A DNA stretch of 35,463 nt from positions 1-35,463 of the forward strand of contig CABMCA010000094.1 in the NCBI GenBank assembly GCA_902384525.1, given 5' to 3'. The notes under the pieces were generated by a model. That model was not told the origin of the DNA and ran no database searches. It was given only the letters and a program-made list of their open reading frames with translations. The number at the start of each line of letters is the position of its first letter. The stretch's first letter is position 1. The stretch comes from an uncultured archaeon. GTDB taxonomy: Archaea; Halobacteriota; Methanosarcinia; Methanosarcinales; Methanoperedenaceae. Of the stretch, positions 6,660 through 25,144 are shown one piece after another. Both the position numbers and the translations under genes were made by a program.

Positions 6660-7673
6660 TCAGTGTTTTAATTTATGTCGGGCAAGAGTATGTGATGGAT
6701 CCAATTCCATTACTTTTCTGAAGCAATTCTGGGCATCAGCATCACTTCCAAGTTCTTTTGTAATCAATCCTTTCTCATACCATACATTAGCGCTATCGGG
6801 ATTTATTTCAATTGACTTATCAAAAGCCTTGAGTGCTTCATTAGCCTTGCCAAGGTTATTGAGAATAACACCTTTTTCAAACCATAATACCGGATCATCT
6901 GGTTTTAATTCAAGTGCTTTTCCATATGCGCCCAAAGCTGTTTCAAATGCTTTCATTGCATCATATTTCCGGTCTATTGAAACAAAGTCGTTGCCCTTTA
7001 ATCCCCAAACCTTTCCTTTACCATACCATGCATTCCAGTTAGACGGTTCGCTCTTAATAGATTTTTCAAGTAAGTCAAAGCTCTCGGCGTATTGTCTTTT
7101 CGTTCCTATGATCAATCCTTTCCTGGCAAGAGCCCCTGCATGTCCCGGATCGATCCCCAGTACTTTCTCATATGACAATAATGCATCAGCATCTTTTCCG
7201 AGAACTGATAGTATTAATCCCTTTTCAAACCACATTTTAGCATTATTCGGATCTTTCACAAGAAGCAGGTCGTAAATTTTTAATACTTCGGAATCTTTTT
7301 TCAATTCTTTCAATATCATTGCCTTTTCATTGAGCAATTTCATATTTCCAGGATCGGCTCCCAGGACTTTGTCATAAGCAACAAGTGCCTCTTCCAGTCT
7401 TCCAAGATTCACAAGTATGAATCCCAGTTCATGCCATGCTTTCATGTTTTTCGGATCAAGTTCCAGGATGGTCTTATAAGCATCAAGAGCCGGAAGATAT
7501 TGTTCAAGGGTAAGGTGTATCGAGGCTTTGTCATACCATGCTTTAAGATTCTTTGGTTCAATATTAAGGATGTTCGCATAAGATTCCAGGGCACGGTCGT
7601 ATTTTCCCGAATTCTTATAATCCTGTGCTTCTTGCATCAAATCTTTTTTCTTGAAAAACCCGCTTAATTTCAT
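6660..7673 (-). CDS. Tetratricopeptide repeat protein
   Basis: A 337-residue protein that is almost entirely TPR: about nine 34-residue repeats with the pattern 'AWYDKASIHLTLEQYLPALD' then 'ILELDPKN', giving the canonical W-x-x-x-G-x-x-x-x-x-G spacing. No signal peptide or membrane segment, so it is cytoplasmic and probably a protein-binding scaffold. One repeat (around residues 205-245, 'GKVWGLKGNDFVSIDRKYDA') is lengthened. It heads the minus-strand group that runs to the CBS gene. The partner is not identifiable from sequence. Confidence 0.9.
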   Translation of the reverse strand: MKLSGFFKKKDLMQEAQDYKNSGKYDRALESYANILNIEPKNLKAWYDKASIHLTLEQYLPALDAYKTILELDPKNMKAWHELGFILVNLGRLEEALVAYDKVLGADPGNMKLLNEKAMILKELKKDSEVLKIYDLLLVKDPNNAKMWFEKGLILSVLGKDADALLSYEKVLGIDPGHAGALARKGLIIGTKRQYAESFDLLEKSIKSEPSNWNAWYGKGKVWGLKGNDFVSIDRKYDAMKAFETALGAYGKALELKPDDPVLWFEKGVILNNLGKANEALKAFDKSIEINPDSANVWYEKGLITKELGSDADAQNCFRKVMELDPSHTLARHKLKH

Positions 7674-13826: not shown

Positions 13827-15479
13827 TTAATGGCCGCGTGCTGCCATTGGTACGCTGTACATCCACAGGGCTATCAATCCGAACATCAAGATCATCACGA
13901 TATACGGCAAAACCGATGCCTTCGAATTGGGATTATTCTGTGATATCTTATATGCTGTATAAATAGCTCCCAGAACGCCCAATACTGAAAGGATATACTG
14001 TATTATCTGAACCGTTGGCATATTCAGGATCGATGGATCACCTGTAATATTCCATCCCACAAGTGAAGCTGAGGTATATATCACAGACAACCCTTCACCC
14101 AGGAAATGCTTTGCATTGTGAGCAAGGTGTATTCCAAGTCCCAGGGGGATAAGAGCGTATCCATAGCGAATGAAGCTGGAAAGTGTTGTTTCCGCAGGAA
14201 CATCCATATCAATATTCAATTCCGCAGACGAGTCAGATATAACATTTGTATTCTGTGTTTTTTTCGGCAATATACTCGAAATGAAACTTGCACCCAGCAT
14301 CAGCAAGAGAGGTATTACCATAGCTGCCGCAAATATTATAGTCCACGCGATTGTGAAATTGGCGATGCCAGTCGTATTTTCAAACCATTCCATGAATGGC
14401 CCCCATACTTCAAGCATAACCAGAGTCTGAACTACAACTATCCCGATAAGAGCTGTTGCAAGGAAAGATTCCTCAAACCGCGGTTTTTTTATGAACCAGA
14501 GTTCACTTGTAGGAGGTCGCGGCGTTATTCTTATGGCATTAGACTGGCATGTCTTTATGCAGTTTGAGCAGAAATTGCAGAACCTGTTTGAATCCATCGT
14601 TCTTGGGTACTCGAACATTGAACATCCGGCAACCTTCCCGTCTCCTTTAAAGCATGTCGGAGTCTTGCAGGTCTTGCATTTTTGGCTGTCAGCCCGGAGT
14701 TCAAGGGCTGAGCTCATGGAATAATTGCATGAGAGGCCGCCGAGAAAACAAAGATAACGGCACCAGGCTCTCCTTTCATATACTGCGCCCATAAGGACCA
14801 CGCCTGCGAACACGAAAAGCAGGAGATAGCCGGTGTTCCTTGGATTTTCCACAAGCCCAAGCACTGAATCAACCCAGGTTATTATCAGGAAAGCAGTTAT
14901 TATGACCCAGACGCCATAAGTCTGAAGGAATTTTGGAACTTTCTTATGCATCCCCACATTTTTTTGCACTTCATCACTGACCCGTGACAGAGGGCAGACT
15001 GAACACCAGAACCTGCCGAAAACAAGGAACAAGACAGGCAGGATTGGCCACAAGAGTATCCATACCATTACCGAGCCGAAATTAAGAGATGTTTCTTCAG
15101 GGCCAAAAAATAACTGGATGACAAGGATGCCAAATATTATCATTGTTGGCAGAACAAATATTAATGGATACCATTTGCTTTTTAAAAGGGATTTAATATG
15201 TGGATTATTAAGGAAATTTATTTTACTGAGCTTCCCGGTGTTGAATGCAACAAATCCTAAAGCCACTGTGCCAAGTAGGAACAAAGATATGACTAACCAG
15301 TTGACCTGTCCTCCCATGGAATGACCGCCTTCACTTGTTGTGGTGGCATGATCTGATGCAGGCATGTTACCCATATCCATATTTCCCATGTCCATATTCT
15401 CTTCATTTGCAACTGCTGGCAAAACGAATGCAGTCAGCAGTAAAAACAAATATAATAACAACAATTTTTTATAATTCAT
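13827..15479 (-). CDS. NosR/NapH/CcoG-like polyferredoxin membrane protein with Met/His-rich N-terminus
   Basis: A 550-residue membrane protein. The start ATG 15479 (MNYKK) has RBS GGTGA five bases upstream; an ATG four codons earlier lacks one. A signal peptide ends near residue 25. The mature N-terminus repeats MDMGNM and then has DHATTTSEGGHSM, a Met/His cluster suited to copper or another soft metal. About ten helices follow. Between helices are NapH/NosR-type motifs WCSVCPL and WCRYLC, then a cytoplasmic Cys-rich loop with CKTCKTPTC and FCNFCSNCIKTC, enough for two [4Fe-4S] clusters. The family moves electrons between the quinone pool or cytoplasm and exported metalloenzymes. The C-terminal four to five helices have no clear match. 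Partner unknown; terminator follows directly. Confidence 0.82.
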   Translation of the reverse strand: MNYKKLLLLYLFLLLTAFVLPAVANEENMDMGNMDMGNMPASDHATTTSEGGHSMGGQVNWLVISLFLLGTVALGFVAFNTGKLSKINFLNNPHIKSLLKSKWYPLIFVLPTMIIFGILVIQLFFGPEETSLNFGSVMVWILLWPILPVLFLVFGRFWCSVCPLSRVSDEVQKNVGMHKKVPKFLQTYGVWVIITAFLIITWVDSVLGLVENPRNTGYLLLFVFAGVVLMGAVYERRAWCRYLCFLGGLSCNYSMSSALELRADSQKCKTCKTPTCFKGDGKVAGCSMFEYPRTMDSNRFCNFCSNCIKTCQSNAIRITPRPPTSELWFIKKPRFEESFLATALIGIVVVQTLVMLEVWGPFMEWFENTTGIANFTIAWTIIFAAAMVIPLLLMLGASFISSILPKKTQNTNVISDSSAELNIDMDVPAETTLSSFIRYGYALIPLGLGIHLAHNAKHFLGEGLSVIYTSASLVGWNITGDPSILNMPTVQIIQYILSVLGVLGAIYTAYKISQNNPNSKASVLPYIVMILMFGLIALWMYSVPMAARGH

Positions 15480-15514
15480 CTTTTTCACCATGTAGTTTAA
15501 ATCCCTTATGTAAG

Positions 15515-16820: not shown

Positions 16821-17477
16821 TTATTTTCTTTGCACCATTATCTTTTCTGCAAGTTCCTTTCCTACTGATTTTTCCGATCCAGTTACCCTGATAAGAATCG
16901 GTCCTCCAAAAGGAGCGACACTCTTTACTTTCACTTCTATCTCAGGATATAATCCAAGACTGCCCAGATACTGTAACATCTCCGAATTCTCTTCAAAAAC
17001 GCTTATAATAACTCCTTTTTCGTTTGCTTTGAGTTCTGAAAGCTTTACTGTATTATCCCGGACTATCAATCCCTCTTTATCAGGTATCGGATAACCATGC
17101 GGGCATGTTCTGGGATTACCCAGTTTCTCTTCGATTTTTTCCTCCATCTCAGAACTTATATCGTGTTCAAGCCTGCATGCCTCCTCATGTACTTTATCCC
17201 ATTCAAAACCCAGAATATCCGTAAGCAGGCGCTCTGAGAGGCGATGTTTTCTTATCACTTTCCTGGCTTTAAGTTCGCCTTCTTTTGTCAATACCACTCC
17301 TTTCTCAGCGTACTCCACAAGTCCTCTCTGTTCAAGCTGCTTTAGCATCTCTGAAACAGATGAAGGGGCTAATTCCAGGCGCTGGGCTAATTTCGAGGTT
17401 GTGGCGGATTCATGCATCTCCTGCAGTTTATATATATATTCAAGATATTCTTCTATCCTTGGGGATTCTTTTGTCAT
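16821..17477 (-). CDS. DtxR/IdeR-type iron-dependent transcriptional regulator
   Basis: A 218-residue regulator. An N-terminal winged helix lies at about residues 5-65, a dimerisation/metal domain at 66-140 and a C-terminal SH3/FeoA-like domain at 145-216. The metal ligands align with Corynebacterium DtxR at an offset of one: H78, E82, H97, C101, E104, H105. Cys at 101 ('ACRLEH') marks the iron type rather than the manganese type MntR, which has Glu there. It is the last gene of the FTR1-ABC operon, 27 bases after the ATPase gene, so it probably reports cellular Fe(II) to the operon's own promoter. It ends two bases from the convergent HxlR gene. Confidence 0.93.
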   Translation of the reverse strand: MTKESPRIEEYLEYIYKLQEMHESATTSKLAQRLELAPSSVSEMLKQLEQRGLVEYAEKGVVLTKEGELKARKVIRKHRLSERLLTDILGFEWDKVHEEACRLEHDISSEMEEKIEEKLGNPRTCPHGYPIPDKEGLIVRDNTVKLSELKANEKGVIISVFEENSEMLQYLGSLGLYPEIEVKVKSVAPFGGPILIRVTGSEKSVGKELAEKIMVQRK

Positions 17478-17504
17478 TTATGATTTCAGTAGGCTTCTTG
17501 ATGA

Positions 17505-18146
17505 TTAATAGTTTACTTCACCGTGTGATATTTGTATTATTTTATCCCCTATTTCGCCGATCTCAGGGTTGTGGGTTACGATCACTATTGTTCTCCCTTC
17601 GCTGTGCAGCTCCCTGAATATATCAAGAACAGCTTCCTCATTTTTTTTATCGAGATTTCCTGTAGGCTCATCCGCTAATATTATCTGGGGCTGGTTTATC
17701 AATGCTCTCGCTATGCATACGCGCTGCTGTTCCCCTCCGGAAAGCCGGGAGGGCAGATGATGCAGCCTGTGCCCCATGCCAACATGCACAAGTGCTTCCC
17801 TTGCTTCTTTCTCGTCTTCAATGCTGTGAAAGTACTGCGCTATCATCACATTCTCAAGGGCGGTAAGATGGGGAATCATGTGGAACTGCTGGAAAACGAG
17901 ACCAATGTTCTCGCGCCGAAAACGCGTTCGCTCTTTCTGGCTGAGCTTTGATGTCTCGCTTCCATTCACCATCAAAGAGCCGCTTGTTGGAGAATCAAGG
18001 CATCCTATCAGGTTCAAAAGCGTGGTTTTTCCGCTACCAGAAGGTCCCATTATATTAGCCCATTCTCCTTTTTCAATAGTGAAACTGGCATCTTTCAGTG
18101 CACATGTAGTATCGTATTTCTTGACAAGATCTTTTGCTATTATCAT
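17505..18146 (-). CDS. ABC transporter ATP-binding protein, LolD/MacB type (Fit-like)
   Basis: A 213-residue single ATPase: Walker A GPSGSGKT, Q-loop 'LVFQQFHMIPHLTALEN', signature LSGGEQQRV, Walker B 'IILADEPTGNLD', H-loop 'VTHNPEIG'. The LFQQFH..LTALENV and TGNLD wording puts it with LolD/MacB/FtsE-like ATPases that power FtsX-fold permeases, two of which are encoded just upstream. Start ATG 18146 (MIIAKDL, AGGA eight bases before) is preferred over an ATG eight codons earlier that lies inside a palindrome. It is the likely motor of the iron-linked transporter in this operon. Confidence 0.92.
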   Translation of the reverse strand: MIIAKDLVKKYDTTCALKDASFTIEKGEWANIMGPSGSGKTTLLNLIGCLDSPTSGSLMVNGSETSKLSQKERTRFRRENIGLVFQQFHMIPHLTALENVMIAQYFHSIEDEKEAREALVHVGMGHRLHHLPSRLSGGEQQRVCIARALINQPQIILADEPTGNLDKKNEEAVLDIFRELHSEGRTIVIVTHNPEIGEIGDKIIQISHGEVNY

Positions 18147-18162
18147 TTTTATCAGTCCTATT

Positions 18163-18182
18163 CCCCGCATTTAAATGCGGGG
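18163..18182. repeat. Perfect 20-bp palindrome between permease and ATPase genes
   Basis: CCCCGCATTT followed directly by its reverse complement AAATGCGGGG. It lies in the 39-base gap inside the operon, three bases after the permease stop region. As RNA it would form a strong hairpin. It could be a processing/attenuation hairpin, an operator, or a hairpin scar of an IS200/IS605-like element, whose ends look like this. No U-tract follows on the minus strand, so it does not look like a terminator. Confidence 0.7.
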
Positions 18183-18185
18183 TCT

Positions 18186-19244
18186 TTACTCACCCCTAAG
18201 TATTACTACAGGATCGATTGAAATTGCACGCCTGATGGGTATCAGGCTTGAAATTGCAGCGATCATTGTTGAGATTAAAAGGGTGAGAACGAAAACCTCT
18301 GGCTTTATCGACACATTCATATCAAATATCTCCATTCCTATGAATTGCGCAAGTGAAAGCCCGACAAAATATCCAAGAATGCCGCCTGCTATACCCATTA
18401 CCCCGGCCTCGGCAAGAAATATAGCTGCAAGCCTGCCATTTCCGCAGCCAAGTGCCTTCATAAGACCTATTTCGCGGCTTCGTTCAAGTACACTTGTAAT
18501 CATTGTGCAAAAAAGACTGAGACTTGCGGCCGAGAGGACAAAAAAAGCCACCAGAGCCATTAAAAGCTGGGTTTTATCAAGAAGGACTTTCTCGCTCTCA
18601 GCCACCTGCCGAATCTTCTTTACTTTATAGCCTTCGTTCTCGAGATATTTGATTACTTCATCGACATCTCCAAGAACACTCACCTGTACCAGTGTTGCTC
18701 CGCTTTTACCTGAAATCTGCTCTGCAGTTTCCATGGGGATGAAAATCCTGTTATCGTCAGATGTACCTGTATCCATAATACCTGAGACTTTAAAGGATTT
18801 CTCCCCTATGCTCAGCATATCGCCGATTCTAAGTCCCAGTTTATTTGCAGCATTAATGCCCGGCATTACCTCTTCCTGTTCTGGAAGTACGCCTTCAACA
18901 TGCCACCAAGGGTTCATTTTTCTTGCTGCTTCAAGGTCTGCCCCTGCAAATTCTATCTGTTTTGCGTTAACCTCAGCTTTGAAATAAAGAAAAGGGACAG
19001 AACCTATGATAGAACCATGAGTAGCATTGAACTGGTCGATATATTCTCCTTCACCTGGCAAGATAACAAGATTGGCTCCGTAGCTTCTAAGTTCCTTGCC
19101 CATCTTCTCCCTTATATCCAGAGAGATGGTTAGCAGAGAAGTCACCATGGCAGCCCCAAGCATTACTGCAATTACAGATATCAACAACCTCTCTCTCCTT
19201 ACCCAGAGTGATTTTGTTACCAGGCGAGTGAACAATTTAATCAC
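18186..19244 (-). CDS. FtsX/MacB-fold ABC permease, second copy (FitC-like)
   Basis: A 352-residue permease. One N-terminal helix (residues about 15-40), a large external domain of about 190 residues, then three C-terminal helices, which is the FtsX/MacB topology. 'MGKELRSYGANLVILPGEG' after the first helix and 'RSREIGLMKALGCGNGRLAAIFLAEA' near the C-terminus (the coupling region) are diagnostic. It uses a GTG start and overlaps the preceding permease gene by eight bases. It is clearly paralogous to that permease, so the pair arose by duplication and probably forms a heterodimer with the ATPase downstream. Confidence 0.9.
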   Translation of the reverse strand: MIKLFTRLVTKSLWVRRERLLISVIAVMLGAAMVTSLLTISLDIREKMGKELRSYGANLVILPGEGEYIDQFNATHGSIIGSVPFLYFKAEVNAKQIEFAGADLEAARKMNPWWHVEGVLPEQEEVMPGINAANKLGLRIGDMLSIGEKSFKVSGIMDTGTSDDNRIFIPMETAEQISGKSGATLVQVSVLGDVDEVIKYLENEGYKVKKIRQVAESEKVLLDKTQLLMALVAFFVLSAASLSLFCTMITSVLERSREIGLMKALGCGNGRLAAIFLAEAGVMGIAGGILGYFVGLSLAQFIGMEIFDMNVSIKPEVFVLTLLISTMIAAISSLIPIRRAISIDPVVILRGE

Positions 19245-20502
19245 CCCTGAGTATAACGGATGGTTCTATTTCAACAGCCTTTTTCACCGGCAGCATGCTG
19301 CCAAGAAGAGCAACTGCCAGCGATAGTATCCCTGAAATCAATACAGAGAAAAGGGATGGATTTATGATAGCGCCGAATACCCACATGCCTACTATTCTGG
19401 CCAGTACAATGCCAATAATAATTCCAATTGCTCCGCCCATCATGCCGGTAACAGCCGCCTCTGCAAAGAATAGCTGTGCGATTTGATTTCCATCGGCACC
19501 TATCGCTTTCATCAATCCGATTTCTTTTTTCCTCTCGAAAATTGAGGTATTCATGGCGGCGGCGACACCCAATGAGGCTGTGGTCATGGCTATACCTGTG
19601 ATCAGGAACATAAGCCATTCAAATTTTTTAAGCAGCTTTCCTTCATTGTCTGCCACCTGCCTGATGGGCCTGGCGCTTGCACTGGGTACTGTTTCTTCGA
19701 TCTGGAGCATTATGGAGGAAATATACGGCGTGCAGTACCAGATTTCATATTTCTCAGGTGGAAGCCTGGATGGGTCTATCTTCTGTTCAGGCTCAGGCTT
19801 GGTCAGCGCACTAACCACCACTCGATCAACCATCCCCTGCTTCTCGAAAAGCATCTGTGCATCCTTGAGGGATACTATCACCTGCCCATCCTCATCCCCG
19901 CCAGTGGAGAGAATACCCGATACTTTGAAAGTCCTATTATTACTGCCGGACTCTGCCCTGAAAAGATCTCCTTGCTTTAACCCTAAATTCTCAGCAGCAA
20001 TGATACCAACAAGCGCTTCCCCAACAAGCGTTTCCTTCGGTGCAGGCCATTCTCCATCTACCTTCCACCATGGCGCTATAGTCTTTACCCCTGTCCTGAT
20101 AGTTGCTTCTTTCTCGTCCGCTTTTCTGTTTCCGATAAATGTTTTGTTGAGCCCTGGTATCCTGATTTCCTCGTCAAAATAAGTGCCGCTCAATACTATT
20201 TCCGTGTCTTTTACCTTTACAGTATCACCGAGATAGGGGGAATATCCCATTATGTTGTGCCTCCAGAAGATGGTTTTCATTTTGTAGAGTTCGCTCTCGT
20301 TTATGAAAGCGCCTTCGGATGAAGGCTGCAAAAGGATGTTTGCGCCGTAGCTTTTTAACTCTTTTCCCATTTTATCATTGATGTCAAATGATACTGTAAG
20401 AAGCGTTGAGGCTATAGAGGCGCCCATGACAACAGCGAGTACTGCCAGGGCAATTCTCAGCTTTCTTCGCTGAATGGCTTTTAAGAGCAGTTGCGGGAAC
20501 AT
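19237..20502 (-). CDS. FtsX/MacB-fold ABC permease, first copy (FitB-like)
   Basis: A 421-residue permease of the same topology as its neighbour: helix 1 at about residues 12-38, 'MGKELKSYGANILLQPSSEG' next, a larger external domain of about 250 residues, then three helices with 'FERKKEIGLMKAIGADGNQIAQLFFAEA'. In FetM/Fit-type bacterial systems a pair of such permeases accompanies FTR1 and a DUF2318 protein, which is the arrangement here; the transported or extruded compound is not established. ATG 20502 follows an AAGGTAA RBS and lies seven bases after the lipoprotein gene. Confidence 0.9.
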   Translation of the reverse strand: MFPQLLLKAIQRRKLRIALAVLAVVMGASIASTLLTVSFDINDKMGKELKSYGANILLQPSSEGAFINESELYKMKTIFWRHNIMGYSPYLGDTVKVKDTEIVLSGTYFDEEIRIPGLNKTFIGNRKADEKEATIRTGVKTIAPWWKVDGEWPAPKETLVGEALVGIIAAENLGLKQGDLFRAESGSNNRTFKVSGILSTGGDEDGQVIVSLKDAQMLFEKQGMVDRVVVSALTKPEPEQKIDPSRLPPEKYEIWYCTPYISSIMLQIEETVPSASARPIRQVADNEGKLLKKFEWLMFLITGIAMTTASLGVAAAMNTSIFERKKEIGLMKAIGADGNQIAQLFFAEAAVTGMMGGAIGIIIGIVLARIVGMWVFGAIINPSLFSVLISGILSLAVALLGSMLPVKKAVEIEPSVILRGD

Positions 20503-20509
20503 AATTGGA

Positions 20510-21193
20510 TTACCTTGCCGTTATCTGGACGTTGTCAAAACAAGTAACTGAGTCAGCTTTTGTCCAGATGCCCACCCCGCCTGCACTGAAAGTATCATCA
20601 GTAGCCTCGACCACCATTTGACCATTCAGAAAACCTTGAATACGATTTCCGGTGTTTTCGACGCGCAACTCCTGCCATTTTCCTGACTCTACATTCACGG
20701 GGACACCTTTGATGAGGCTTCGCCTTCCGGCAACGTACTTATAGAGGTTAATGTTGTCTTCGAGCGCATTGACACGCAGGATGTAGTAATTATCTTTATC
20801 CTGGATACGAAAGATGATTCCTGCTGCCTGATCAGTACGACCAGATATCGGTTTGAAAAAACTAGATACAGCAGCATCAACATACACTGTATCGCTCAGT
20901 GAAAGAGCAGGGAACTCTGAAACCCCAATCTGTCAGAGAGCATTTGGTGGTGTCGGAGCATCGCTATCTGTGCTTATTACCCAGTCCCCGCTGAAAACAT
21001 TTGCTTCCTTAGGAAGTCCACCCACAGGATCGGTATCGAAAGTCCATTTTATCATTTGACCTGGAGCAGCACTCTTATTAAGTGGATATTTAATAGCTGG
21101 CTGTTTGGTGACACAACCTGAGATAAGAAGCACAGCTGCGGCAATGACAATCAGGCACAACACATTTGCTTCTTTGGAGGTAATCCTTTTCAT
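20510..21193 (-). pseudogene. Lipoprotein with concanavalin/LamG-like (DUF1080-type) domain, interrupted by in-frame TGA
   Basis: ATG 21193 has RBS AAGGTG. The product starts MKRITSKEAN and has a lipobox 'LLISGC' with Cys27. It reads to 'APTPPNAL' at codon 86, then TGA at 20935-20933. The same frame continues open with 'QIGVSEFPALSLSDTVYVDAA' and 140 sense codons that match one continuous beta-sandwich domain: 'KPISGRTDQAAGIIFRIQD', 'NALEDNINLYKYVAGRR', 'GVGIWTKADSVTCFDNVQI'. Both sides therefore belong to one gene of about 226 codons. Because the downstream part has kept its frame, the nonsense change is recent, or is a read error, or is recoded. Its place between FTR1 and the Fit-like permeases is where bacterial operons carry the P19 iron-binding protein. 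Carbohydrate binding is the usual guess for the fold. Confidence 0.75.
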
Positions 21194-21205
21194 TTGCACA
21201 CCTTT

Positions 21206-22495
21206 TTATTTGAACAGGTCGGCCTTTTCTCCCGCATCATCTGTTTTTATTACGATCTCATCGCCAGCAACTGTATATTTAAGGGGTATGGGATTGCATC
21301 CTCCTGCTTCGCCTATGGTATCAGGGTTAATAGGTGCTCCGCACCGCTTGCATATGAGCTGCTCCCCCTCCTGTACATACCCTGCAGCGCCGCACAGGGC
21401 GCAGGCATCATAAGCTACGGCAGCGCTCCCATCGCTCTTTGTCATAGCCAGAATCCTCACATTCGCTTTGCCATTGCTGCCGTGCATCGGGCAGGCTTCA
21501 CCCGCAGCGTGCTGCATATCGCAAACGTATTTATGCAAATTCCCATCAGATGCGCTTGCTGCAGAGATCTTTATCGCGCCTCCTGCTGTGCTCATTTTTT
21601 CAGGCTTTGGATCTACCCCGGACGGCAGCGCGGATATCTGGGTGCTCACGAAAGCAAATATTATAAATGCTGCTACTATGCCCACTGTGATTTTCCTGTT
21701 TCTCTCTTTACGCATAGCACCGAGCGCTTTTCTTTTTTCAATGCCTTCAATACCGTCAGTTTTTATCTGCTTCCATGGCACCATTACGAATAACACCACA
21801 AGGAAACCAAGCAAGATACCAGTGAATACAATGGAAGCCGAGTCCTTTACTAACGGACCTATGATACTCATACCGAAAGGGTTGAGAGTTATTACTCCTA
21901 CTTCCGACAACTCATGTATTCCGCCCACAATCAGTTGGAAGATTATTATAGCTAACATAACACCAGTTATCTTGAAGAACCTTCCAAGGTTCATCTTAAG
22001 GCTGCCTTTAATGAATAAGTAACCAAAAAGCGTTTCCAATGCAAAACCTACAGTTGCTTCCAAAGCAACAAAAGAATTTGTCTTTGTTATTGTTGTAGAG
22101 AGGAATAATACAATTTCTGCACCTTCTCTGTATATCATGAAAAAGGTAAGCGCAAAAACTCCTAATGCCTGCCACTTACTCAGGGCACTTTCCATGTTCT
22201 GCTCGATATCCTGCCTGATGTGCTTTGAAGTGTGTTGCATCCACAGCAGCATTGTAACTAAGAAGAACGCCGTTATGAAGTACATAAGACCCCCCATGAA
22301 ATCACTCCATTGCGTCTTAAGCATTTGAATTACTATGGCAGTCGCGATGCTTCCTACTATAGCCGCAATTATCCCGGCATATACATATTTCTTCAGCGCC
22401 TCTTTATTGGTCTTGCCAAGGTATGCAAGTATTATACCAATTACAAGCGCTGCTTCTATTCCTTCTCTTAAAGTAATTGTCAGTGTTTCAAACAT
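21206..22495 (-). CDS. FTR1-type iron permease fused to a C-terminal DUF2318 Cys-rich domain
   Basis: A 429-residue fusion. Residues 1-285 are an FTR1 permease with both REGxE iron motifs (REGIE at 10-14, REGAE at 123-127) and seven or more helices. Residues about 310-420 are a domain of the DUF2318 type, with Cys at 325, 335, 365, 368, 382, 385 and 400 and phrases 'CDMQHAAGEACPMHG', 'ACALCGAAGYV', 'ICKRCGAPIN'. Such a domain is usually a separate protein in FetM/Fit operons. ATG 22495 is chosen because GGTGAG lies four bases before it; a start 14 codons upstream has none. It heads the iron operon. Likely role: uptake of Fe(II)/Fe(III) with a redox-active outer domain. Confidence 0.9.
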   Translation of the reverse strand: MFETLTITLREGIEAALVIGIILAYLGKTNKEALKKYVYAGIIAAIVGSIATAIVIQMLKTQWSDFMGGLMYFITAFFLVTMLLWMQHTSKHIRQDIEQNMESALSKWQALGVFALTFFMIYREGAEIVLFLSTTITKTNSFVALEATVGFALETLFGYLFIKGSLKMNLGRFFKITGVMLAIIIFQLIVGGIHELSEVGVITLNPFGMSIIGPLVKDSASIVFTGILLGFLVVLFVMVPWKQIKTDGIEGIEKRKALGAMRKERNRKITVGIVAAFIIFAFVSTQISALPSGVDPKPEKMSTAGGAIKISAASASDGNLHKYVCDMQHAAGEACPMHGSNGKANVRILAMTKSDGSAAVAYDACALCGAAGYVQEGEQLICKRCGAPINPDTIGEAGGCNPIPLKYTVAGDEIVIKTDDAGEKADLFK

Positions 22496-22508: not shown

Positions 22509-22522
22509 TTAGGTTTACCTAA
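22509..22522. promoter_or_regulatory. Candidate DtxR operator 1 at the FTR1 start
   Basis: TTAGGT-TT-ACCTAA, perfect six-base arms, 14-27 bases before the FTR1 ATG. The half-site TTAGGT equals the left end of the DtxR/IdeR consensus. The regulator is encoded at the far end of this operon. Confidence 0.6.
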
Positions 22523-22554: not shown

Positions 22555-22568
22555 TTCGGTTAACCGAA
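22555..22568. promoter_or_regulatory. Candidate operator 2 upstream of FTR1
   Basis: Uninterrupted 14-base palindrome TTCGGTTAACCGAA in AT-rich flanks, 60-73 bases upstream of the FTR1 ATG, where the basal promoter would lie. The half-site TCGGTT resembles, but is not identical to, TTAGGT of operator 1. A DtxR-family or other metalloregulator site is likely. Confidence 0.55.
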
Positions 22569-22668: not shown

Positions 22669-22694
22669 AACGTATGAACATACATACATATGTT
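22669..22694. promoter_or_regulatory. Imperfect inverted repeat over the arsR start (autoregulatory operator)
   Basis: AACGTATG, ten bases, CATATGTT: arms match at seven of eight positions. The right arm contains the arsR ATG (22690). A TATA element (TTTATAATA, about 22658-22666) is about 28 bases before the ATG, implying a leaderless transcript that a bound repressor would block. Confidence 0.55.
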
Positions 22695-23028
22695 ACATGG
22701 AGATTTAACCACTGCAAAAAAGTATTTCTTCAGCGCATTGAGCGATGAAACCAGGCTTTCAATACTCTATGCATTGAAAGAGAACGGCGGAATGTGCGTA
22801 AATGATATCTGCGAGGCGACAGGAAAAGACCAGAGTCTCATCTCGCACCATATGGCATGTCTGCGAAACTGCGGGCTTGTAAACACCGAAAAAGATGGAA
22901 AATTTGTGGTTTACTCGATAAAGAACGAGCTTATCTCACAAATTCTTGATCTTTCGGATAAGCATGTGAAGGAAATGTTTGAAGGAATTCTTTCTTGCGA
23001 GGTTGTAAAAAACAAAAGCAGGAGTTAA
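22690..23028 (+). CDS. ArsR/SmtB family metal-responsive repressor
   Basis: A 112-residue winged-helix protein. 'KKYFFSALSDETRLSILYAL' is the usual ArsR opening. Helix-turn-helix: 'VNDICEATGKDQSLISHHMACLRNCGLVNTEKDGKFVVYSI'. Cys pairs fit the metal-sensing type: MCVNDIC in the alpha3 region (the CVC-box position of ArsR/CadC), C in 'MACLRNCG', and one in 'ILSCEVV'. Ligand could be a soft metal such as Hg, Cd, Pb or As; sequence alone does not decide. It starts the operon, one base ahead of the AtwA homologue, and an inverted repeat covers its start codon. Confidence 0.9.
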   Translation: MLHGDLTTAKKYFFSALSDETRLSILYALKENGGMCVNDICEATGKDQSLISHHMACLRNCGLVNTEKDGKFVVYSIKNELISQILDLSDKHVKEMFEGILSCEVVKNKSRS

Positions 23029-23029
23029 A

Positions 23030-25144
23030 ATGGCAGCTTTAATTGAGATACGGGATTTGAGCATAAGTGCTAATGGCAAACAGATTCTCAAAAATATAAA
23101 CCTGGACATAAATGAAGGCGATAGCATCGGTATAATTGGAAAGAGCGGTGCAGGAAAAAGTACTCTTTTACATTTGCTTCGAGGTTTTGAGGAATTTGAA
23201 GATATTTCTGGCGAGGTCATATTTAACATTTCCTTGTGTCCCAAATGCGGTAAAGTAAATCCACCAGGTAATGCAGGCAAAGCGTGCTCAAAATGTGGCA
23301 TAAAAACAGAATTGAAAAGGGTGAATTATTTTAATTCGAAGGACATGCACCGGAAAATCATGGACAGGACTGCTATTATGATGCAGCGAACCTTTGGATT
23401 ATATGGCGATGAGACAGTTCTTGAGAATATCATTCACAGCTTTGAATGTTCCGATATTCCTAATGAAAAACGTCCTTATGTAGCAGCAGAATTAATAGAA
23501 AAAATGAAACTCAGCCATAGAATGACTTACACCGGGAAAGAACTCAGCGGGGGAGAGAAACAGCGCGTAGTGCTGGCAAGGCAGCTTGCGAAATACCCGA
23601 TGCTTTTGCTTGCGGATGAACCGACCGGGACACTTGATCCAAGAACTGCAAAGCTTGTGCATGACAGCATATTAAAAGCAAAACAGGAACACAACATGAC
23701 AATGCTTGTTACTTCGCATCTGCCTGGCGTTTTGCATGACCTGACAAACAAGGCGATCCTTCTGGAAAATGGAGAAATCATCGAAATAGGAAAACCGGAT
23801 GATATTATTGAAAAGTTCTCTGCAATGACAGAAGTTGTGAATGAGGGCAAAGCAGTCATCGGTGAACCGATCATTATTCTTAAGGATTTGAAGAAAAAAT
23901 ATTACTCTTATTCAAAAGGTATGATCCCTGCGGTGAATGGCGTGAACTTCGAAGTCAACGAAGGAGAAATTTTCGGTATACTGGGTATAAGCGGAGCAGG
24001 TAAAACAACACTCTCTAAAATCATAGCAGGCATTATGGAGAGAGATAGCGGAAAAGTGGATGTTAGAATCGGGGATATATGGGTTGATATGACCGAGAAA
24101 GGAACAGATTTCAGGGGACGCGCAAAACCGCATATTGGCTACTTGCATCAGGAATATTCCCTTTATCCTCACAGGAATGTATTGTCTAATCTGACCGATT
24201 CGATAGGTCTGAAACTTGAGCCTGAACTCGCAAGAACAAAAACGATTGCTGCATTGAAAGCAGTGGGCTTTGATGAAAATACAGCACATGAGATTTTAGA
24301 GAAGACATCATATGAGCTCAGCGTTGGAGAACGTCAGAGGGTGACAATGGCGCAGGTTCTCATAAGAGAACCGAGGATTATTATTTTTGACGAACCAACA
24401 GGAACGATGGACCCGATCACAAAGAACGAAGTTGCAAACTCGATACTGACAGCAAGAAAAGAGACGGGGACGACATTTGTTATAGTTTCTCACGACATGG
24501 AATTTGTCCGGAATGTTTGCGACCGCACTGCGCACATGAAGCTTGGCAAAATAACGGCGATGGGAGATGCCGGTTCGGTGCTTGAGGAAATTAAGATCGA
24601 AGAAAAAGCAGACAGGGAAAAGACTCCGCAAGACAGGAATAACGATCTGGAGAGATTTCTTAAAAGAGCACAGCAGTGTACAGATCTGAATGTTTTGAAC
24701 GATGTTGATTTTTATGTATCAAAGGCAAAGGAGACTGCCGTAAAACTCAACAAGGATATCAGCGGCGAGCTTGAAAGGCTAAAGCCAGCATATGAAAAAG
24801 GGATCTCTGAAATGCTTAAAGAAGCGGAAAAATATGCATCAGAAGGGCAAATCTATGGAATGCATGTGTATATAGAAAATGCAATAAATTATGCAGCTAA
24901 AGCAGGTATCGATATTTCAGGGGAGCTTGCGAAATTCATGCCTTCATACGAGGAAGGTCTCAAAGAGGCTTTGCAGGAAGCAGAGAAGCATGAAGCTGAA
25001 GGTTTCCTTGGAATGTCGTATCAATATATTCATAGAGCAGGAAATTATGCCGGAAAGCTTGGAAGAGACATAGAGGAAATCTTAAAATCATTACCGTGGT
25101 ATGAGAAATGGACGCTGACAGATATACATATGAAATTGAGGTGA
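23030..25144 (+). CDS. AtwA (MCR component A2) homologue with zinc ribbon and helical-repeat C-terminal extension
   Basis: A 704-residue twin ABC ATPase without membrane segments. Half 1: Walker A GKSGAGKS (37-44); zinc ribbon C70-x2-C73-x12-C86-x2-C89; LSGGEKQR (172-179); LLLADEPTGTLD. Half 2: Walker A GISGAGKT (319-326); signature LSVGERQR (430-437); IIFDEPTGTMD. The ribbon, 'MMQRTFGLYGDETVLENI' and 'LPGVLHDLTNKAILLENGEI' match canonical AtwA as I know it, the ATPase used in reductive activation of methyl-coenzyme M reductase. Unusual is the tail, residues about 525-704: three helical repeats of about 52 residues ('MLKEAEKYASEGQIYGM', 'ALQEAEKHEAEGFLGM'). RBS AGGAGTTAAA lies in the arsR end. 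Its operon with arsR, ferredoxin and MerA-like genes suggests metal or redox stress control. Confidence 0.88.
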   Translation: MAALIEIRDLSISANGKQILKNINLDINEGDSIGIIGKSGAGKSTLLHLLRGFEEFEDISGEVIFNISLCPKCGKVNPPGNAGKACSKCGIKTELKRVNYFNSKDMHRKIMDRTAIMMQRTFGLYGDETVLENIIHSFECSDIPNEKRPYVAAELIEKMKLSHRMTYTGKELSGGEKQRVVLARQLAKYPMLLLADEPTGTLDPRTAKLVHDSILKAKQEHNMTMLVTSHLPGVLHDLTNKAILLENGEIIEIGKPDDIIEKFSAMTEVVNEGKAVIGEPIIILKDLKKKYYSYSKGMIPAVNGVNFEVNEGEIFGILGISGAGKTTLSKIIAGIMERDSGKVDVRIGDIWVDMTEKGTDFRGRAKPHIGYLHQEYSLYPHRNVLSNLTDSIGLKLEPELARTKTIAALKAVGFDENTAHEILEKTSYELSVGERQRVTMAQVLIREPRIIIFDEPTGTMDPITKNEVANSILTARKETGTTFVIVSHDMEFVRNVCDRTAHMKLGKITAMGDAGSVLEEIKIEEKADREKTPQDRNNDLERFLKRAQQCTDLNVLNDVDFYVSKAKETAVKLNKDISGELERLKPAYEKGISEMLKEAEKYASEGQIYGMHVYIENAINYAAKAGIDISGELAKFMPSYEEGLKEALQEAEKHEAEGFLGMSYQYIHRAGNYAGKLGRDIEEILKSLPWYEKWTLTDIHMKLR

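Follow-up and report, generated by a model that had tools for sequence, protein, structure and literature searches.

In bacteria, the Fet iron systems (FetMP–FetABCDEF of Campylobacter jejuni and its homologues in E. coli and Pasteurella) combine an FTR1 permease with a DUF2318 protein, two FtsX permeases and a LolD-type ATPase. Normal growth of C. jejuni at low iron requires each of fetM, fetP and fetA–D, and FetA–F have been proposed to supply reducing power; the roles of the DUF2318 protein FetA and of the FetBCD ATP-binding cassette (ABC) unit in bacterial iron uptake are not established (PMC10783030). Here we analyse an operon of similar content on a 35,463-nucleotide stretch of archaeal DNA (contig CABMCA010000094.1 of assembly GCA_902384525.1, family Methanoperedenaceae), which we call the window. 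It belongs to a genome of 2.92 Mb in 130 contigs, and we compared it with its relatives across 31 Candidatus Methanoperedens genomes. The operon lies on the minus strand and is tightly packed, in the order FTR1–FtrD fusion, lipoprotein frame, FtsX, FtsX, LolD-type ATPase and DtxR. An earlier note, made from the letters alone, had read it as an operon of an FTR1–DUF2318 fusion, two FtsX permeases and an ATPase closed by a DtxR regulator, and Pfam confirmed these domains. We propose that the operon probably encodes a Fet-type iron importer that is repressed by DtxR, works without P19 and has its FtrD domain tethered to a permease with both REXXE motifs.

The archaeal and bacterial loci have in common FTR1, a DUF2318 domain of identical Cys motif, a pair of FtsX permeases and a LolD-type ATPase, arranged in matching relative order; in both, a metal-repressor box stands ahead of the operon. 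The order DUF2318 protein, FtsX, FtsX, ATPase is found in the E. coli, Pasteurella and Fusobacterium loci, with FTR1 and P19 placed first in E. coli and Pasteurella. This Fet core is known. What differs here is that FTR1 and DUF2318 form one protein, whereas they are separate proteins in bacteria, that DtxR and DtxR boxes stand in place of Fur, and that there is no P19, nor thioredoxins or a YHS domain. The FTR1/EfeU permeases of the EfeUOB and FtrABCD systems also have an FTR1 domain with two REXXE motifs, but the window operon has no EfeO/EfeB or FtrA/FtrB cupredoxin neighbours, and its FtrD domain is attached to the permease. Against the NCBIfam EfeU model the fusion scored 147.5 bits, under the cut-off of 255, and it is not assigned to EfeUOB.

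The FTR1–FtrD fusion protein

The fusion gene (21206..22495) encodes an FTR1 domain at residues 1–199 (Pfam, 1e-34) and an FtrD-like/DUF2318 domain at residues 342–428 (2e-26), close to the residues of about 310–420 that the earlier note had given for a DUF2318 domain fused to FTR1. Motifs and hydropathy revealed the order of its parts: FTR1, a basic loop, an extra (eighth) membrane helix and a C-terminal, Cys-rich FtrD/DUF2318 domain. The FTR1 part keeps both REXXE motifs, as REGIE (10–14) and REGAE (123–127). The Cys motif of the FtrD part, CxxC-x13-CxxC-x14-C, exactly matches the spacing published for bacterial DUF2318, CxxC-x13-CxxC-x14,15-C (PMC6083913). Across 13 aligned orthologues, both REXXE motifs and the seven Cys in the FtrD end were all invariant. 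Two of these Cys lie ahead of the main motif, in a segment of the C-x9-C-P-M-H-G type in Methanoperedens (fusion residues 325–339, approximately 21479–21523); the pair resembles heavy-metal-binding CPMH motifs and does not occur in the homologue from another archaeal family (L080). Because the basic loop precedes the eighth helix, the positive-inside rule would place the FtrD domain outside the cell, and we take it to be extracytoplasmic. The fusion had no sequence match among solved structures and no relatives on viral contigs. An AlphaFold2 model (mean pLDDT, the predicted local distance difference test, of 40.6; shallow alignment) was not used.

The window is assigned to Candidatus Methanoperedens: each of the 12 nearest named loci with the fusion belongs to this genus or carries the label of its family or order. 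The fusion is not unique to this lineage, as a genome from a second family in the phylum (L080) encodes the fusion, FtsX, FtsX and an ATPase with two box-like sites, without DtxR or the lipoprotein. No other sampled genome of that class contained the fusion core. Bacteria were sampled through plasmid records, none of which covers 80% of the fusion, a sample that does not exclude chromosomal fusions.

The DtxR regulator and its predicted operators

The last gene of the operon (16821..17477) encodes a regulator with the three domains of IdeR/DtxR proteins, namely a helix-turn-helix, Fe_dep_repr_C and a C-terminal FeoA/SH3-like domain (Pfam), and its sequence matches IdeR/DtxR entries of the PDB. 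It retains the Cys-x-x-Glu-His site (EACRLEH, compared with EACRWEH in IdeR), and two His regions align as well. It also shares with these regulators the 14-bp half-operator TTAGG(N4)CCTAA. It differs from them in having Glu for Met10, in facing two distinct boxes set 46 bp from each other where they have a single 19-bp site, and in that its gene lies within the operon, probably under its own control.

The two DtxR-type boxes precede the fusion gene. The distal box, TTCGGTTAACCGAA (22555..22568), is perfectly palindromic and lies 73 bp before the start, and the proximal box, TTAGGTAAACCTAA on the gene strand (22509..22522), lies 27 bp upstream and fits exactly the 14-bp minimal IdeR/DtxR consensus TTAGGNNNNCCTAA (PMC8464063). 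The pattern TTMGGTNNACCKAA matches four times in the 2.92-Mb genome, twice ahead of this operon and twice ahead of a second operon, FTR1–DtxR–FeoB (L037; genome G000, contig C2, 3881–7416), which has the same box pair at 7425–7438 and 7467–7480. Among the 31 genomes of the genus, 34 of 46 matches fall within 150 bp upstream of an FTR1 gene. Such stretches make up approximately 0.008% of the sequence, so that chance would place almost none there, and it is the positions of the matches that carry the signal; with the pattern reversed as a control there were 23 matches, and the raw count thus exceeds the control only about twofold. Several of the remaining matches lie ahead of ABC genes, a DtxR gene or a PhnD-like binding protein, and others lie in unrelated coding sequence. 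The box pair at about −73/−27 is kept in most Methanoperedens homologues, and two similar boxes precede the fusion in the other archaeal family (L080). These predicted operators, found before this operon and nearly all homologous ones, support the view in the earlier note of a Fet-type iron system with its own DtxR, and suggest that DtxR controls the operon, presumably as a repressor responding to iron.

A PhnCDE-like ABC importer is inserted in several FTR1–FtrD operons (L027:10305-12751; also L031, L035 and L038). Its binding lipoprotein belongs to PF12974 and also passes the cut-off of the Transferrin model. A genome without the fusion has such an importer with its own DtxR-type box approximately 67 bp upstream (L124:3330-5026). 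The importer is probably iron-regulated and not an importer of phosphonate.

The ABC unit and the interrupted lipoprotein

The ABC unit consists of FtsX-type permease 1 (FetB-like; 19237..20502), FtsX-type permease 2 (FetC-like; 18186..19244) and a LolD/MacB-type ATPase (FetD-like; 17505..18170), all assigned with Pfam. At 76% identity or more, FtsX1 has an orthologue in every one of the 15 genomes (of 31) that carry the fusion, and the other 16 have none. The chance of such an exact match would be approximately 3e-9 (1 in C(31,15)) if the genomes were independent; they are related, which lowers its true weight. The ABC genes lie directly behind the fusion, or behind the PhnCDE insert, in 13 of 16 fusion loci. 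Two genomes (G015 and G024) contain an unlinked FtsX–FtsX–ATPase–DtxR operon with a box, TTCGGTAGTCCGAA or TTCGGTAATCCGAA, approximately 28 bp upstream. In another (G021), the FTR1 part beside the ABC genes has been deleted and a full fusion lies on another contig. The remnant (L039:9191-9496, contig C39) joins the start of the gene to its FtrD end with the permease gone, and it still has FtsX–FtsX–ATPase behind it and the boxes upstream.

The window ATPase groups with bacterial FetD, apart from unrelated LolD-type ATPases (tree support 97/97), and FtsX2 groups with FetC (84/80). FtsX1 is 38% identical to E. coli FetB compared with 26% to FetC (BLAST), and the tree did not settle its place. 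The kinship of the permeases to FetB/FetC is weaker than that of the ATPase to FetD.

FtrD-like domains also occur beside one FtsX and an ATPase in sets that differ from the window operon in having a single FtsX and no adjacent FTR1, with FtrD as a small separate lipoprotein or a membrane-anchored protein. In methanogens of the same order, Methanosarcinales (L042–L046), FtrD is a small lipoprotein. On plasmid pPRO1 of Pelobacter propionicus (L091:1055-8208), FtrD, FtsX and ATPase genes stand beside a heavy-metal P-type ATPase and a heavy-metal-associated domain protein, a context that points to a use of the FtrD/ABC module for other metals too. The FtrD-linked ATPases of the methanogens and Pelobacter fall outside the FetD group.

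Between the fusion and FtsX1 lies the lipoprotein frame (20510..21199), with a 3-keto-disaccharide-hydrolase/lectin-like domain, which is not a core part of the operon. It is interrupted by an in-frame TGA (20933–20935), and the portion past this codon matches the 3-keto-disaccharide hydrolase and lectin models of Pfam. We rejected TGA as a coding codon here, as TGA ends several window genes (5 of 17 checked) and the frame lacks a conserved counterpart. No close relatives were found in the 30 other genomes of the genus; the search returned the frame itself and two weak matches of 27% identity. The lipoprotein is also missing from every other FTR1–FtrD operon seen, where the gap between FTR1 and FtsX is mostly 3–17 bp, amounts to 203 bp of unrelated sequence in a single operon (L033) and contains the PhnCDE-like importer in several. 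The 203-bp gap was considered as a relic of the lipoprotein, and no similarity was found. Together, the interruption, the lack of close relatives and the absence from other operons indicate that the frame is probably a recent insertion that is now decaying, or a consensus or assembly error. The earlier note had put a ConA-like lipoprotein in the place of P19 (FetP), which does not hold. In the E. coli and Pasteurella loci P19 sits between FTR1 and the DUF2318 protein, a junction that cannot exist in a fusion, and the broken, genome-specific frame sits between FtrD and FtsX and is therefore not in the P19 position. P19 itself (PF10634) was not found in the genome of the window, nor in 59 of the 60 genomes searched. 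The adaptation to an archaeal envelope that the earlier note suggested would agree with this loss of P19, although the loss is no proof of it.

Several other genes lie around these loci. Downstream of the operon, at 13827–15491 of the window, is a gene for a NapH-like membrane polyferredoxin with a Met/His-rich N-terminus, which has homologues near the operon in L028 and L038. On the other side, 22690–25144 holds a divergent ArsR regulator and a double-ATPase protein resembling methyl-coenzyme M reductase component A2, and these also adjoin the FTR1 operon in L027 and L029. A 191-amino-acid ferritin-like protein is encoded near stand-alone FTR1–FtrD genes in two loci (L041:8175-8750 and L034:16811-17386; 99% identical).

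Proposed mechanism, alternatives and meaning

The domains, motifs, operators, co-occurrence and kinship of parts are observed; from them we infer which way iron is transported, that iron represses the operon, that FtrD has a redox or delivery function and what the ABC unit does. With plenty of iron in the cytoplasm, Fe(II)-loaded DtxR would bind both boxes and keep the operon off; as iron falls, the operon would be expressed. The FTR1 part would then move iron inward across the membrane. Held outside by the eighth helix, FtrD may use its conserved Cys to hand iron to the pore or to alter the redox state of iron there. The FtsX–FtsX–ATPase complex, of the MacB/LolCDE mechanotransmission type, would not carry iron itself and may use ATP to drive or reset FtrD. 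By analogy, the low-iron phenotypes of C. jejuni fit this mechanism without proving it.

Several observations weigh against this proposal. The usual bacterial partners P19, thioredoxins and the FMN (flavin mononucleotide)-binding protein are missing from the operon, which leaves the redox supply unexplained; no thioredoxin-like (FetE/F) or FMN-binding partner was found in the operon or its conserved neighbours. The 31 genomes share ancestry, and the co-occurrence counts are not independent. The methanogen sets and the pPRO1 heavy-metal cluster have FtrD, FtsX and ATPase without FTR1, and FtrD/ABC chemistry is thus not confined to FTR1. Finally, the Glu at the IdeR Met10 position of the window DtxR means that its metal is not certain.

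The ABC genes could instead be a MacB-like system of their own, for efflux or lipoprotein handling, that just happens to adjoin an FTR1 iron permease, in line with their separate operons in G015 and G024 and with the methanogen sets that lack FTR1. The earlier note had named membership of a separately conserved MacB efflux operon as a result that would count against its reading. Within the genus the ABC genes form no such operon, because FtsX1 accompanies the fusion all or none (15 of 15 genomes with it, none of the 16 others) and because the unlinked copies carry the same box type and end in DtxR. The NCBIfam MacB and LolCDE models scored far under their cut-offs, the ATPase groups with FetD, and the operon lacks the makings of a MacB pump, as the ATPase is a separate protein, there are two permeases, and no adaptor or outer channel partners are encoded in it. 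We consider this alternative improbable. It is also unlikely that the operon imports another metal, such as manganese, or exports excess iron. The best NCBIfam score of the window DtxR, which falls below the cut-off, is to the MntR model, and the Glu at the Met10 position, the heavy-metal cluster of pPRO1 and the copper-type P-type ATPases that neighbour the operon in the window would all agree with another metal. However, DtxR retains the Cys-x-x-Glu-His of iron-type regulators, the same boxes agree with the IdeR consensus and precede FTR1–DtxR–FeoB, and an FTR1 with both REXXE motifs belongs to the iron permease family. Methanoperedens is known for its multihaem cytochromes. This, together with the NapH-like polyferredoxin near the operon in the window, L028 and L038, would suit a role of FtrD as an electron or metal donor to a wider extracytoplasmic redox network, with the fusion supplying iron for the maturation of cytochromes or metalloproteins outside the cell and not for the cytoplasm. 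We found no direct evidence for such a role and regard it as very unlikely, given that characterised FTR1 systems move iron inward and that the predicted DtxR operators would link expression to cytoplasmic iron.

The proposed Fet-type importer allows a broader reading, which is possible but doubtful: with FtrD acting at the FTR1 pore mouth and energised by the FtsX–ATPase, Fet systems would be ATP-driven FTR1 permeases, the archaeal fusion would be an ancestral or minimal form, and the eight-helix part of FetA would be a copy of FTR1 without REXXE. The shared eight-helix layout speaks for the last point, as bacterial FetA has eight predicted helices and a membrane part without the REXXE pair. 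End to end, hhalign scored the FetA membrane part against FTR1 at 29.4 (P 0.0028), compared with 11–17 for unrelated membrane families; the hidden Markov model score exceeded 200 shuffles, yet 3 of 150 fine-grained column shuffles and rotated profiles equalled it.

That a DUF2318 domain is tethered to a live FTR1, and occurs all or none with the ABC genes and without P19, points to the permease itself as the target of FtrD and the ABC unit, and to P19 as dispensable. The locus also gives a concrete candidate iron regulon, predicted operators included, for an archaeon that oxidises methane anaerobically and has a high demand for iron.

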